The notes under the pieces are model-generated. The model saw only the letters and a program-made list of their open reading frames with translations, was not told the DNA's origin and did no database searches. The position numbers were made by a program, and so were the translations under genes. DNA of 32,382 bases from an uncultured Eubacteriales bacterium (GTDB lineage Bacteria > Bacillota > Clostridia > Lachnospirales > Lachnospiraceae), in the NCBI GenBank assembly GCA_949292725.1, contig CASFAQ010000011.1, positions 1 through 32,382 on the forward strand. Reading direction: 5' to 3'. Shown in pieces: positions 2,266-28,657 of the stretch (positions within the stretch are counted from its first letter, which is position 1; the number at the start of each line of letters is the position of its first letter).

Positions 2266-4104
2266 ATGAAAATGCGTAAGTTGTATGCAGCTATGGCGGT
2301 TGCTCTTACAGTGTGTCTTACGCTTCCGCTTGCATCGGATGCAGGGGCGGATGCGGCAAAGAAACCTGCGCTTAGCAAGAAGAAGCTTTCCATTAACGTG
2401 GGCAGCTCCAAGAAGTTAAAGATTAAGAACTATAAGAAAAAGGTGACGTGGAAGACCAGTAAAGCATCTGTAGCAAAGCTTTCAGCCAAGAAGAAGACTT
2501 CCGTAAAGATTACGGGAAAGAAGAAAGGCTCTGCTGTTGTAACGGCATCATATAAGCAGGCAGGAAAGACTAAGAGGCTCAAATGTAAGGTTACGGTACG
2601 TGAAAAGACCGTTAATGATGTTACGGTGACTCCGGTGCCTGTTGATAATTCGACTCCGGTACCACAGCCTACGGCAACTATCGATCCGAATGCGCCTACG
2701 CCTTCACCGACTCCGTTCCCATATGACACATATGAGGGATGCCTGTGGAAACAGCCGGCGGACGTACATATCAAGGATCTGTTCTCTCAGTATTTTGTCA
2801 GTGGAGTCAGTACAGATCTTGGAAGCTTAAGATTCGGTGAGTCCGCAGCACTTGTAAAGTATCATTTCTCAAGTGTTACCATGGGTAATGAGAACAAGAT
2901 GGAAAGCCTTATAACTGATGAGGCGACAGATGAGTATCCGGATGGAATGGGTAAGGCTAATGTTGATAATTACTATGCAACCAACGGTGAAGGAAAGGTT
3001 ATAATTAATTACAGGACACTTGAAAATGTGCTTTCATATTGTAAGGCTAATAACCTGAAGCTCCGTTATCATGCATTTGTATGGCATTCACAGGTTCGAG
3101 AGTACTTCTTCCTGCAGGATTATAACTATTCCGACTACAGTCTTGAGGATTACGAGGCTAACGGATGGGATACATCCAATTATCATAAGCTTGCTGATTA
3201 TGATACGATGAAGAAGAGACTGAATGATTATATAAGCCAGGTTATTGATTATATCTATTCACATGGCTATGGCGACGTGGTATATGCATATGATGTAATC
3301 AACGAGGCAGCTAACGGTAATGTTACCTTTACGTACAATGATAATGGTTCAACTGTTTCAGTAAGGACCAATCCGGGAGTAACGACCCAGTCAGGAAAGA
3401 CCGTTACTTCTGACAGCAGCCCTGATGACGTAATGGATATGCTGGTAAATGAGGGAAGAGTTCCTGCTGCAAGCCACAGCTACTGGTATGCAACACTTGG
3501 TAAGGATTATCTCTACCTGTCATACCTGTACGCATATGAGGCAATTCAGGAGGCTATGGCAAAATACGGCGCTCAGTTCGGTTATACACAGACTCCGTCG
3601 CTGATATATAACGATTACAACACGGATGCTGATAACCAGATAAAACTTGTTAATTACATTAACTTAACATGTAATGAGGTTAACGGAACATCGGGTATCA
3701 AATACTGTGACGGTATCGGACTTCAGTCACACAGTATTCCTGAGGCTACACAGGAGAACATGATCAAGAAGATAGCTGATGAGGGACTTGAGGTTCAGAT
3801 CACGGAGCTTGATGAGAATATCAACATAGCTGAGGATACTCATGCATCCAAGATGAAGAAGCTGTATGGTATCTATATGAAGTATTCAAAGAACGGTGAG
3901 TATGGAAGCGTCCAGGGCGACGATTACATCGGAGTAACATCTGTTACCAACTGGGGAATATGTGATGGTGACGGAAGCTGGGGAGCAGCCTATCTGTTCA
4001 AGACGTATGACGATCCTGAAGAGATTCTTTCGCTTGAGCCAAAGCCTGTATTCTACGGAATATTACAGGCCGGAGGCGTGGACTGCGGAGATGAGGTTTA
4101 TTAA
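2266..4104 (+). CDS. Secreted GH10 endo-1,4-beta-xylanase with basic Ig-like N-terminal module
   Basis: A 612-residue modular protein. Residues 1-30 form a signal peptide (basic start, hydrophobic core, cleavage probably near ADA-AKK). Residues 31-113 form a very lysine-rich Ig-like (Big_2-like) module with the WKTSKASVAKLS and GxAxVTASYK pattern. Residues 114-152 are a Pro/Thr linker. Residues about 165-605 are the GH10 barrel: RYHAFVWHSQ at 267-276, the acid/base Glu347 in DVINEA, IYNDYNT at 447-453, the nucleophile Glu514 in QITELDE and the TNWG segment at 561-564. All key GH10 residues are present. It should cut internal beta-1,4 bonds of xylan outside the cell. GAGGAGG is well placed before ATG 2266. 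No LPXTG, SLH or dockerin is seen, so retention may rest on the basic module (inference). It is a single-gene unit with its own promoter and terminator. Confidence 0.95.
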   Translation: MKMRKLYAAMAVALTVCLTLPLASDAGADAAKKPALSKKKLSINVGSSKKLKIKNYKKKVTWKTSKASVAKLSAKKKTSVKITGKKKGSAVVTASYKQAGKTKRLKCKVTVREKTVNDVTVTPVPVDNSTPVPQPTATIDPNAPTPSPTPFPYDTYEGCLWKQPADVHIKDLFSQYFVSGVSTDLGSLRFGESAALVKYHFSSVTMGNENKMESLITDEATDEYPDGMGKANVDNYYATNGEGKVIINYRTLENVLSYCKANNLKLRYHAFVWHSQVREYFFLQDYNYSDYSLEDYEANGWDTSNYHKLADYDTMKKRLNDYISQVIDYIYSHGYGDVVYAYDVINEAANGNVTFTYNDNGSTVSVRTNPGVTTQSGKTVTSDSSPDDVMDMLVNEGRVPAASHSYWYATLGKDYLYLSYLYAYEAIQEAMAKYGAQFGYTQTPSLIYNDYNTDADNQIKLVNYINLTCNEVNGTSGIKYCDGIGLQSHSIPEATQENMIKKIADEGLEVQITELDENINIAEDTHASKMKKLYGIYMKYSKNGEYGSVQGDDYIGVTSVTNWGICDGDGSWGAAYLFKTYDDPEEILSLEPKPVFYGILQAGGVDCGDEVY

Positions 4105-11990: not shown

Positions 11991-14396
11991 ATGATAATAA
12001 AACACAATAAAAAATGTAATACCGTTGTTGTTACGGCGGTGATTATAGCGCTATTACTAAGCGCGGTATCCATATACCAGAGCCCGGCATCGGCAGCGCA
12101 GAAGATTAAAAAGATATCTGTAAAGGGCTGCAAGTCGGGCTGTTTTGGTATGAAAAAGGGCGAAAAACTCAGATTGAAACTTGCGATCAATAAAAAAGTA
12201 AAGAAGAAGGCGTGGAAGAAAGTAAAATTTACATCATCCAAGAAGAAAATAGCATCGGTAAGCAGACGCGGTGTGGTTAAAGCCAGGTTGGAAGGACGTG
12301 CCGTCATAAAGATAAGGGCAAAAAAGGGCAAGGCAAGGACCAGGGTGCGTATTGTAGTAAGTAAGGATACATATACCTATACGGATGTGTATGCGCATAC
12401 AGCCGCACCGGCTGATATAGCTGCTGTGTCTACGGGAGAAGTATCCGGCATTCCGGCTGTGACGCCTACGGATACGCCTTTTATGGCGCCGACTGTAACT
12501 CCGGCAGATGAGCCGACCAGAGAACCTTCAGCTTCGCCGACAGATACGCCTACCAAGTCGCCAACGGCAGCTCCTACCAAGTCGCCAACGGCAGCTCCTA
12601 CCAAGTCGCCAACGGCAGCTCCTACCAAGTCGCCAACGGCAGCTCCAACTAAAGCGCCTACAGCGACTCCTTCGGCAAGACCTACATATTATCCGGGAGA
12701 GAATCCCGAATATGAAAGACCATCAGTAACCGCAAAACCTGTTTTAAGTTTTCCTATTAACGGTGGCTCGGATTCCATCATGAATGAGGGAACGAGTGAT
12801 AATGCAGAGATAACATATAACTCTGACGGAACCATGACGATTACATTTAAGAGTCAGTGGGCGGCTGTTAATTTTATGTTGCCTGATAATGCACAGAATT
12901 ATTACAGTGAATACAGGTCGGCGGTTATAACGTATAAGAGCGAAGGAACTCTTTCGGGAGATAATAATCTTGGTCATGCGTTGTTTGATGATAAATGGGA
13001 TCCGTCGGGAGCGGATGCCGGTGCAGGAAAGCATCCTGACTGGGGCAGAAAGATTACTGCTTCGTCCGAGTACACTACGAAGGTATTCAATGTCACGGAA
13101 GAGTGTAACGGCGGAGTTATAAGAGGGGTGCAGATATTTAACCCTAATCAGATGAGTAGCGGTGATTATATAAAGATTACGATAGCCTCAATTGTTTTCT
13201 ATAATGAGGAGAAGGAAGAGGGATTTGTTCCTGATGAACCAGTGCCAACGCCGGTGGGAGCTGTGTATTCCGGCAATTACCGTAATCTGTTTAAGGAAAA
13301 CGGACATTCCGACGAAGAGATAAGCCGGAAGCTTGATTCGGCATGGCAGCAGTTGTTCTATGGAAGCGAAGAGGAGAAAATATATTATACCGTGGGAAGT
13401 GATATGGCATATATCTATACTGCGGATACGGATGATGTGCGTTCAGAGGGTATGTCTTACGGAATGATGATATGCGTTCAAATGGATAAGAAATCGGAGT
13501 TTGACAAGCTGTGGAAGTGGGCAAAGACATATATGCAGCATAACAGCGGCATGCATAAGGATTACTTTGCATGGCAGTGTAATACGGACGGAACAAAGAT
13601 TGACGAAACGCCTGCATCAGATGGTGATGAATACTTTGCAACTGCGCTCCTGTTTGCATCGGCAAGGTGGGGCGACGGAACGGGAATATATAATTACAGC
13701 TCGGAAGCGGACGCTATATTGAATGCCATGCTTCATCAGGCAGATGACGGACAAGGCTTTAATATGTTTGATTCGCAGTACAAGCTTCCGGTATTCTGCC
13801 CTACATGGGGAGCAGCTTCATTTACTGACCCGTCATATCATCTGCCTGCATTTTATGAGGTGTGGAAGCGCATTGATACTGACAATTCGTCCTTCTGGGC
13901 ACAGGCGGCTGCGGCAAGCAGAAGCTATTTTAAGATGGCAACGAATGAAACTACGGGACTTGCGCCGGATTATTCTGAATTTGACGGAACGCCAAGGGAT
14001 ACGAACGGACACGGAGATTTCAGGTTTGATGCGTGGAGAACCGCAGCCAATATAGCGTGCGATTATGCGTGGTGGGGTAAGGATGATTGGGCTGTAACTC
14101 ATGCAGATACAATTCAGCAGTTTTTCTATAGTAAGGGAATCGAAAGTTACGGTAACCAGTGGACTCTTGTTGGTGAGAGCCTGTCGTCGGATCATTCACC
14201 GGGTCTTGTAGCGATGAATGCGGTAGCGTCTCTTGCGGCAAGTAACGACATAGCAAAGGAGTTTGTCGAAGAATTGTGGAATATCGGTATAACTACCGGC
14301 AAATACAGATATTATGACGGATGCCTGTACATGATGGGACTTCTCCATGTAAGCGGTAATTTCCGGGCATATTTTCCCTCGGGAGTAACTCCCTGA
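11991..14396 (+). CDS. Secreted GH8 xylanase (Rex-like exo-oligoxylanase) with Ig-like and putative binding modules
   Basis: An 801-residue modular protein: signal peptide about 1-36 (cleavage near ASA-AQK); very basic Ig-like module about 37-124; Pro/Thr linker about 155-235 with four exact PTKSPTAA repeats; a beta-rich module about 250-405 (YNSDGTMTITFKSQWAAVNF to ITIASIVFYN), likely carbohydrate-binding; GH8 catalytic domain about 424-801. The last closely resembles Bacillus halodurans Rex, the reducing-end xylose-releasing exo-oligoxylanase: YRNLFKENGHS, the acid Glu486 in RSEGMSYGMM, DGDEYFATALLFAS, DPSYHLPAFYE, the base Asp680 in FRFDAWR and YYDGCLYMMGLLHVSGNF. Residues at the Rex loop that blocks the acceptor side are partly kept (DHSPGL against LHPVGL), so endo-xylanase activity is also possible. 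Known Rex enzymes are mostly cytoplasmic; this one carries a signal peptide. Confidence 0.92.
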   Translation: MIIKHNKKCNTVVVTAVIIALLLSAVSIYQSPASAAQKIKKISVKGCKSGCFGMKKGEKLRLKLAINKKVKKKAWKKVKFTSSKKKIASVSRRGVVKARLEGRAVIKIRAKKGKARTRVRIVVSKDTYTYTDVYAHTAAPADIAAVSTGEVSGIPAVTPTDTPFMAPTVTPADEPTREPSASPTDTPTKSPTAAPTKSPTAAPTKSPTAAPTKSPTAAPTKAPTATPSARPTYYPGENPEYERPSVTAKPVLSFPINGGSDSIMNEGTSDNAEITYNSDGTMTITFKSQWAAVNFMLPDNAQNYYSEYRSAVITYKSEGTLSGDNNLGHALFDDKWDPSGADAGAGKHPDWGRKITASSEYTTKVFNVTEECNGGVIRGVQIFNPNQMSSGDYIKITIASIVFYNEEKEEGFVPDEPVPTPVGAVYSGNYRNLFKENGHSDEEISRKLDSAWQQLFYGSEEEKIYYTVGSDMAYIYTADTDDVRSEGMSYGMMICVQMDKKSEFDKLWKWAKTYMQHNSGMHKDYFAWQCNTDGTKIDETPASDGDEYFATALLFASARWGDGTGIYNYSSEADAILNAMLHQADDGQGFNMFDSQYKLPVFCPTWGAASFTDPSYHLPAFYEVWKRIDTDNSSFWAQAAAASRSYFKMATNETTGLAPDYSEFDGTPRDTNGHGDFRFDAWRTAANIACDYAWWGKDDWAVTHADTIQQFFYSKGIESYGNQWTLVGESLSSDHSPGLVAMNAVASLAASNDIAKEFVEELWNIGITTGKYRYYDGCLYMMGLLHVSGNFRAYFPSGVTP
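12549..12644 (+). repeat. Four identical 24-base tandem repeats in the GH8 linker
   Basis: Four perfect copies of a 24-base unit encode PTKSPTAA repeats, followed by a degenerate fifth copy (to about 12668). Perfect identity at the DNA level, including third positions, points to recent expansion, and slippage could change the linker length between strains. Confidence 0.9.
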
Positions 14397-26363: not shown

Positions 26364-26386
26364 GTTATGGAAAATATGATTTGGTT

Positions 26387-28657
26387 ATGAAATCAATGAA
26401 AAAAACATTGGCAGCAGTTCTTTGTGCAGCAATGGTCGTTACCCTTGTGCCATCAGGCTCTGCAGATGCGGCAAAGAAGCCTAAGCTTAAGAAGAAGACT
26501 TCGGTAACAGTTGGAAAGACTGTTAAGATTAAGGTAAAGAACGCTAAGAAAAGTTCAAAGTTTACATGGAAGACAAGTAACAAGAAAGTTGCTAAGATTA
26601 CCAAGAAGGTTGCAAAGGGAAAGAAAGCCTCTGCAACAGTTAAGGGTATCAAAGAGGGTAAAGCTAATATTACTGCTACATATAAGAAAGGCGGTAAGAA
26701 GATTAAGCTTAAGTGTAAGGTTACGGTAAAGGCCGACACAAGCGTACAGCCAGTTGTTAACCCTACGGCTCCGGTAGTGTCACAGAATCCTAATCAGACG
26801 ACACCTCCTGTAATACAGGATACTGCACAGCCTAATCCTACAGCAACTAATCGGCCTACAAGAAGACCTACGGCTTCACCTACGCCTAAGCCAACGGCAA
26901 CTCCGGTTCCGGAACCTGATGCCATTATGTATAAGACATATGTGGATATCAATGTAGACGGCGTGGTTGATGAGACATGGGATTTTGCAGATGAGATGGC
27001 GCTTGATAACTGGTATGCAGATCCAGAGCAGAACGATACGGGCAATGCACAGACAAGCAATGCTAAGGCAAAGATGCTTTGGACTGACAGCTATCTGTAC
27101 ATCCTAGTAACAGCTGATGATCCGGAGATTGATAATGGTAATGATGCTACATATCTTCAGGATTCTGTAGAGATATTCTTCGATCAGAATAATGCTAAAG
27201 TTGATTATTCGGCAAGCAATGCATTCCAGTATCGTCTTGTAATTAACCCTAAAGAAGGTTCTGAGGAACCTGCGGGAACGCTTACGGATAAGAACAGCTG
27301 GGATGGAGAGGATATCATATCGGCAGCGGGTACAACCGAAACAGGATATGTATGTGAGTTTGCCATTCCTTTAAAAGAGGCTCCTGCAGTAAGAAACTTC
27401 TCAGGTGTTGAGGTTCAGATTAACGATGCGTCAGGCGGAGTAAGAAACGGAACATGGAATCTGTTCGCAGACCCTGCTAACGGAGATACCATTCCTTACA
27501 GCGATACCACAGTATTTGGTGATTGCCAGTACATGATAAAGACACAGCCTAAGGTTATTACTCTCAATCTTACAGAGGATAATCTTGATATGAGACTTCC
27601 TGACCAGTTCAGAGTTATTGAGACGGATGATGAAGACAATCAGATGTTTGATGAAGAGGGATATCCGATATACGCAGTTGATGATAACGGAGCTTACATA
27701 CCACAGGACGGCGTTATGAATACATTATCCAAACTTGAGGACGGAGTACTGTATTGTAACACTGCCAATAATGCCGTTGTGTATTTCTCTGACGGAACTG
27801 AGGCAAGAACGGTATTGTCCGGTGAAAAAGCCAAGGTTAAGATCACGGGTACATATGTTGCAGGAGAGGAAGAGGATATAACTGCCGCTGCATTCAGAAT
27901 GTGGATGGTTGATTCTAACGGACGTACTCTTACCGGAGATTCACCTGTAACCACATCCAATCAGGAGACTATATCGGTTGAACAGCTTGCTCCGGATGAG
28001 GACGGAAACTTTGAGTATGAGTTAGAGTTTACCGCACGCGAAGGAGATAAGGCAGCTGACGACGGATATGAAAGCATTGGAAACTGCGACGGTATCATGA
28101 TCAAGGCTCCTACATATAACGGAACGATAGGTAATCTTGTAATCAAGTCGGTTGTAATTACCGTAGATGATCCTATCCGCAACGATACTCCGTCCGTAGG
28201 AGATGACGATAATGATGATACAGGCGTTTATGAGCTTGATCTTACTAAGACTGATTTCTACTCTATTGAGGGAGATGGAACAACAGCTTCATACAATGAA
28301 GAGAATGGTACGCTTGATGTGAACGTTGCACAGTTTCAGGCTATCCTTCTTAAGGCTCCTGCAGATAAGGCTTATAAGTATGTAGAGATTGCTTACACAA
28401 GTGATTCGGAGCTTAACTATTATGTGTTTGACGCTGATCTTACAGATGGACTTGGACAGACGCCTTCAGGACAGCATCAGGTTGCAAACCTTGTTGCCGC
28501 TGATGTTGAGACTGTTGTCGGCAGTGAAGCAGGTGCAGATTATGCAGGAAACTGCGTAACGGCAGTAAAGATTGTTCATGTAGACTGGAACAGTGAGGCT
28601 GCAAAGAAGATACAGATCAAATCTGTTAAATTCATGTCTGAAAAGCCTGCACAATAA
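26387..28657 (+). CDS. Secreted xylan-binding protein: basic Ig-like module, CBM9 and two further beta modules, no catalytic domain
   Basis: About 756 residues. Signal peptide about 1-28 (cleavage near ADA-AKK); extremely lysine-rich Ig-like module about 29-115 (FTWKTSNKKVAKITKK, KANITATYKKGGKKIKLKCK); Pro/Thr linker about 116-178; CBM9-like domain about 181-383 (DGVVDETWDFAD, AKAKMLWTDSYLYILVTADD, DSVEIFFDQNNAK), a family that binds xylan or glycan ends; a beta-rich region about 388-595; an acidic linker; and a last beta module about 615-751 that resembles the module before the GH8 catalytic domain. No glycosidase motif is seen, so it probably tethers substrate to the surface. Start choice is uncertain: ATG 26387 and 26396 both lack a recognisable ribosome binding site, while TTG 26381 is less likely. 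It lies between two cytoplasmic glycosidase genes. Confidence 0.85.
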   Translation: MKSMKKTLAAVLCAAMVVTLVPSGSADAAKKPKLKKKTSVTVGKTVKIKVKNAKKSSKFTWKTSNKKVAKITKKVAKGKKASATVKGIKEGKANITATYKKGGKKIKLKCKVTVKADTSVQPVVNPTAPVVSQNPNQTTPPVIQDTAQPNPTATNRPTRRPTASPTPKPTATPVPEPDAIMYKTYVDINVDGVVDETWDFADEMALDNWYADPEQNDTGNAQTSNAKAKMLWTDSYLYILVTADDPEIDNGNDATYLQDSVEIFFDQNNAKVDYSASNAFQYRLVINPKEGSEEPAGTLTDKNSWDGEDIISAAGTTETGYVCEFAIPLKEAPAVRNFSGVEVQINDASGGVRNGTWNLFADPANGDTIPYSDTTVFGDCQYMIKTQPKVITLNLTEDNLDMRLPDQFRVIETDDEDNQMFDEEGYPIYAVDDNGAYIPQDGVMNTLSKLEDGVLYCNTANNAVVYFSDGTEARTVLSGEKAKVKITGTYVAGEEEDITAAAFRMWMVDSNGRTLTGDSPVTTSNQETISVEQLAPDEDGNFEYELEFTAREGDKAADDGYESIGNCDGIMIKAPTYNGTIGNLVIKSVVITVDDPIRNDTPSVGDDDNDDTGVYELDLTKTDFYSIEGDGTTASYNEENGTLDVNVAQFQAILLKAPADKAYKYVEIAYTSDSELNYYVFDADLTDGLGQTPSGQHQVANLVAADVETVVGSEAGADYAGNCVTAVKIVHVDWNSEAAKKIQIKSVKFMSEKPAQ

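Follow-up and report, generated by a model that had tools for sequence, protein, structure and literature searches.

A lysine-rich Big_2-type Ig module as a candidate charge-based surface-retention tag on exported xylan-acting proteins of a Lachnospiraceae genus

A strongly basic Ig-like module, carried mostly by xylan-degrading or xylan-binding proteins, may serve as a non-covalent, charge-based surface-retention tag that, we infer, binds the cell wall. Nearly all of the non-lipidated xylan-digesting proteins that this bacterium exports have it. On sequence data, we give this reading about an even chance. Three of its carriers are encoded in the window, the whole stretch of 32,382 nucleotides analysed here (contig CASFAQ010000011.1 of assembly GCA_949292725.1, from an uncultured Eubacteriales bacterium of the Lachnospiraceae), with the following features.

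2266-4104, + strand: GH10 protein (signal peptide, basic module, Pro/Thr linker, then catalytic region)
2266..2352, + strand: predicted signal peptide of the GH10 protein, cleavage near ADA-A (translation, hydrophobic core)
2353..2607, + strand: basic Big_2-type Ig module of the GH10 protein, net charge about +28 (own-genome profile 42.8 bits; AlphaFold; charge)
2608..2721, + strand: Pro/Thr-rich linker of the GH10 protein (translation)
2722..4101, + strand: GH10 xylanase catalytic region, acidic (PF00331, E=1.5e-34)
11991-14396, + strand: GH8 protein (signal peptide, basic module, Pro/Thr linker, then GH8 domain)
11991..12098, + strand: signal peptide of the GH8 protein, predicted from the translation
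12099..12368, + strand: basic Big_2 module of the GH8 protein, net charge about +32, arginine-richer and divergent (PF02368, 24.9 bits)
12369..12695, + strand: Pro/Thr repeat linker of the GH8 protein (PF04886 PT repeats)
13434..14348, + strand: GH8 catalytic domain (PF01270, E=1.8e-30)
26381/26387-28657, + strand: CBM9 protein (signal peptide, basic module, Pro/Thr linker, then CBM9)
26387..26473, + strand: signal peptide of the CBM9 protein (ATG at 26387; TTG at 26381 is an alternative start)
26474..26731, + strand: basic Big_2 module of the CBM9 protein, net charge about +30 (PF02368, 30.5 bits; 50/84 identical to the GH10 module)
26732..26950, + strand: Pro/Thr linker of the CBM9 protein (translation)
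26954..27529, + strand: CBM9 domain (PF06452, E=4.2e-31)

As the initial annotation had described, all three translations run from a signal peptide through a lysine-rich Ig-like module into a Pro/Thr linker. The modules are 88-93 residues long and contain 28 Lys and 2 Arg in the GH10 protein, 26 Lys and 9 Arg in the GH8 protein, and 33 Lys and no Arg in the CBM9 protein, giving net charges of +28, +32, and +30, respectively, while the rest of each protein is acidic, at -38, -39, and -70. A Pfam scan detected no catalytic family in the CBM9 protein, and LPXTG-type anchor, SLH, CWB2, and dockerin families are missing from all three proteins at E<=10, in agreement with the annotation.

The GH10 and CBM9 modules, which share the motifs WKTSxxxVAK and GxAxxTAxYK, are clearly homologous, since their alignment scores 222 and the best of 1000 shuffles reaches 101. 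The GH8 copy, described from the start as more divergent, scores 63 and 75 against the GH10 and CBM9 modules, within the maxima of composition-preserving shuffles (86 and 84), so that its homology rests on profiles: it matches Pfam Big_2 at 24.9 bits, above the cut-off of 22.8, and an own-genome Big_2 profile at 54 bits, the seeds of which come partly from the GH8 copy itself. The CBM9 module exceeds the same Pfam cut-off with 30.5 bits. The GH10 module gives no match with the Pfam Big_2 profile, and scores 42.8 bits with the own-genome profile, which does not include it among its seeds. AlphaFold predicts an Ig-type beta sandwich for the GH10 module (pLDDT 92.7, six sequences), and this model resembles Big_2-CBM56 structures (Foldseek E=1.6e-4), superposing on 7quz/7r3t, the Big_2-CBM56 domains of the beta-1,3-glucanase BglH, with a Z of 11.1 and an rmsd of 1.8-2.0 Å. 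By profile and model, the modules of the three proteins are thus Big_2-type Ig domains (PF02368). Chance composition is excluded by the shuffles for GH10 and CBM9 and by the profiles for GH8, and a new domain family is excluded because the module belongs to a known one.

The likeness to known Big_2 proteins extends to the solved GH10 xylanase 4hu8, which matches a profile of 30 own-genome modules (E=0.008), and comprises fold, profile match, and glycoside hydrolase context. In contrast to these proteins, the module described here is lysine-dominated with a charge of about +26, occurs as a single copy right after the signal peptide, and recurs on about 30 proteins encoded in a single genome. 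Xylanase 4hu8 is probably the enzyme from termite gut that Han et al. 2013 described; the title of that paper attributes significance to the enzyme's Ig-like domain.

The three window proteins are real cases of a much larger set, which the initial annotation had strongly undercounted. The own genome, a draft 1.75 Mb MAG in 92 contigs with 94% completeness, contains 54 Big_2 copies with a bimodal charge distribution: 20 at or below +12, one at +16, and 33 at +18 or more. Most near-neutral copies lie inside their proteins or occur as repeats (GH59-type, LRR, NlpC/P60, amidase, and deacetylase proteins), and most basic copies stand alone at the N-terminus, between the signal peptide and a linker that leads to an acidic payload. 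These payloads include GH10, GH8, GH43, GH115, GDSL esterases, PF00756 esterases, CBM9 (some module-CBM9 proteins having no detected catalytic domain), a glucuronoyl-esterase-type protein, and a polysaccharide deacetylase. Two basic copies are C-terminal, on a GH127 protein and on an esterase; three GH5 proteins carry the module and at least one does not. Among the GH13 frames, examined as a neutral-substrate control, none has a clear signal peptide. Genome-composition bias is excluded as the source of the lysine richness, neutral and acidic Big_2 copies being present in the same genome.

Some loci depart from this layout. A 189-residue frame (L017:1696-2262, C24:5695-6261) consists of a signal peptide, a basic Big_2, and an acidic Pro/Thr tail, with no further convincing domain, and another module gene (L032:13581-15879, C7:41580-43878) is split over two frames by a frameshift or an assembly error. 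Two GH59-type and LRR proteins (L023:3812-7075 on C15 and L039:2371-4818 on C5) have acidic Big_2 copies and a basic C-terminal part of +30 to +35, which in the LRR protein is an fn3.

The GH10 relatives of the window protein come from Lachnospiraceae or Clostridia MAGs. The profile search in relatives that had been proposed gave 55-91 matches in each of nine other species of the genus. Among 54 proteins scanned, nearly all from these nine species and two from other genera, the payloads include PF00756 (11), GH10 (10), and CBM9 (9). In a set of 77 genus modules, net charge lies between +20 and +32, and lysine makes up 32% of residues, arginine 1.5%, and Asp plus Glu 2%. Their charge variance is 6.9, compared to 11.8 expected for independent columns, and 0.3% of shuffles gave a value as low; this set was chosen by profile score with no charge threshold, a first set having been taken at +18 or more, which narrows its variance. 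The lower variance suggests selection on the total charge of the module. There are about ten GH10 matches per genome in the genus and zero in most other relatives. In four loci from genera with no GH10 (L209, L212, L213, and L244; G036, G020, and G023), a terminal C-terminal Big_2 copy carries +19 to +23 and most inner copies are near neutral.

Among GH10 proteins, the module follows the export route. With signal peptides and lipoboxes assigned by simple rules, it occurs on 25 of the 27 GH10s with a classical signal peptide (genomes G000, G001, G005, and G009) and is missing from the lipoprotein GH10s, frames of 417-435 residues with a lipobox, in 10/10 genomes, as well as from the cytoplasmic GH10 of the own genome. 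The nominal Fisher value of 2e-7 for this association should be read as one consistent contrast, since the lipoproteins look like one orthologous group, with few independent events. As exceptions, four genomes (G009, G005, G006, and G007; L271-L274) have a near-neutral GH10 that lacks any strongly basic part; the only one of these scanned, L271, contains ricin-type lectin repeats. A near-neutral GH30 protein with no basic module (L194:10593-12776) also contains such repeats. These GH10 and GH30 proteins are possibly a released class.

Judging from the sequences, charge seems more important than fold for the role of the module, because one GH10-CBM_4_9 protein (G008, L275:837-3044) has neither the N-terminal basic Big_2 nor any other Big_2 and ends instead in a basic LRR_5 tail of about +36. 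In the own genome, a peptidoglycan amidase (L204:11021-13201, C20) has a lysine-rich Cu_amine_oxidN1 domain of +23. In a 400 kb sample of the own genome, the first 20 kb of 20 contigs picked independently of Big_2 matches, a 75-residue stretch of at least +23 is found in 6 of the 10 classical signal-peptide proteins of at least 500 residues, compared to 4 of 156 non-secreted proteins that reach +18. Four of these six stretches are Big_2, one is LRR_5 (in a CotH protein), and one is the Cu_amine_oxidN1 of a peptidoglycan amidase; the sampled secreted proteins with no such stretch are a GH98-CBM-esterase, a GH30-ricin protein, an LRR protein, and a protein of unknown function.

Recognised anchors hardly overlap with the module in the own genome. 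No LPXTG-like motif occurs in the last 60 residues of the module-bearing ORFs, almost all of which also lack a lipobox; in the genome as a whole there is no dockerin (PF00404) at E<=1 and no SLH (PF00395) over the cut-off, and Choline_bind_1 gave no match, with a control that was equally silent. The module proteins themselves, which lack LPXTG, fit the proposed route apart from sortase; the genome does have five sortase matches and one LPXTG-type anchor (PF00746) over the cut-off, on a protein other than the module carriers. Five CDP-glycerol glycerophosphotransferase-type matches, all in one cluster, make an anionic wall polymer likely in this organism. One basic-module protein (L035:2551-3654, C37:11050-12153) is probably membrane-anchored, since it ends in a hydrophobic segment.

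Electrostatic holding of these proteins to the wall is plausible, and as a model it would proceed as follows. Carrier proteins would leave via Sec and have their signal peptide cleaved, and the lysine-studded domain (about +26, few acidic residues), now N-terminal, would bind anionic polymers, probably of the teichoic-acid type, in the envelope of the same cell, with the Pro/Thr linker keeping the acidic catalytic or binding domain facing outward. Module-CBM9 proteins with no catalytic domain might then bridge the cell to xylan. Retention by charge would explain why net charge is conserved, why folds interchange, why lipoproteins lack the module, and why some module-CBM9 proteins are non-catalytic, and the +23 domain of the peptidoglycan amidase counts in its favour because the substrate of that enzyme is the bacterial wall. 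Of the original reading, a tag of conserved charge stands, placed on exported xylan proteins that have no recognised anchor and missing from lipoprotein GH10s, together with a likely anionic wall polymer. Counting against retention, an Amidase_3 protein and an NlpC/P60 protein have near-neutral Big_2 domains, at least one carrier (C37:11050) also has a C-terminal hydrophobic segment, and the basic modules cluster on xylan-acting proteins, a bias that adhesion to substrate would likewise predict.

In that explanation, the lysines would draw the enzyme to fibre by binding anionic plant polymers non-specifically (4-O-methylglucuronic acid on xylan, pectin, lignin). It would account for the xylan bias, as carriers are mostly xylan-acting (GH10, GH8, GH43, GH115 alpha-glucuronidase, CE15-type glucuronoyl esterase, esterases, CBM9), and for what looks like an exchange of the module for ricin-type or several CBMs, since secreted enzymes with no module often have these (GH10-ricin, GH30-ricin, GH98-CBM), as if the module replaced a CBM. 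High-pI domains of a Lactobacillus brevis S-layer-like protein are indeed known to bind plant polysaccharides non-specifically (PMC12691797). Nevertheless, GH10-CBM_4_9 and CBM9-only proteins combine module and CBM, although a second domain for substrate binding would bring them little benefit, the peptidoglycan amidase has a basic domain with a different fold, and in genera with no GH10 the basic Big_2 is located on LRR_5, GH43, and unknown proteins. We rank retention over anionic-xylan adhesion, which we consider rather improbable, and both could be true at once.

The module might also space out or stabilise the domain attached to it, its charge merely balancing an acidic payload. In favour of this role, a Big_2-like stretch is matched on the solved xylanase 4hu8, and charge balance has some support: module charge rises with the acidity of the rest of the protein (Spearman -0.56, 26 own paralogues), and the total charge lies within 10 of neutral in 59% of 92 proteins. 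Module charge is, however, nearly constant (+26.4, sd 2.9) over payloads ranging from -4 to -89, lipoprotein GH10s with an acidic linker do without the module, and a neutral Ig, of which the same genome has copies, would suffice, so that we regard this role as unlikely. Docking on a specific acidic surface protein, in the manner of a dockerin without calcium motifs, would fit a single module type serving about 30 different payloads and the missing dockerins, but residues change freely along the module (pairwise identity averages 41% and falls to 16%; a single invariant glycine in 30 own-genome copies), another fold can take the module's place, and no partner protein was identified, which makes docking very improbable.

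To our knowledge, the wall-binding domains of Lactobacillus S-layer proteins and the Listeria GW modules have folds other than Big_2, and none is fused to xylanases. They associate with the wall non-covalently, through positive charge or teichoic acids (PMC2571106, PMC4010754), and this binding has been measured, whereas that of the Big_2 module is what we infer. By analogy, the nearest functional precedent is the basic terminal domain (FPm-1) of Fibrobacter succinogenes, common to GH10, GH43, esterases, and CBM-only proteins, and discussed as a surface-anchoring domain before being proposed as a type 9 secretion signal (PMC3079729, PMC6851124). The likeness is one of description; the Fibrobacter domain is C-terminal and belongs to a diderm, whereas most basic Big_2 copies are N-terminal. 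In the literature outside subscription journals, our search returned no account of lysine-rich Big_2 in Lachnospiraceae, and although the Big_2 family is already known, its genus-wide use as a charge tag seems undescribed.

Taking Big_2, LRR_5, FN3-like, and Cu_amine_oxidN1 folds together, we tentatively suggest, as a possibility we hold with clearly less confidence than retention itself, that the genus tags the fibre-degrading proteins it exports with a polycationic domain, whatever its fold, forming a non-covalent enzyme layer on an anionic wall without dockerins, sortase, or SLH, lipidation being the alternative. How xylanases with no dockerin, SLH, or sortase signals stay near the cell is poorly explained in rumen and gut Lachnospiraceae. 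If retention by the basic module is true, a short portable charge domain would explain how these free-looking xylanases do so, the sequence of a secreted protein could tell whether it is retained or released, and the module might be usable for surface display in Gram-positive hosts.
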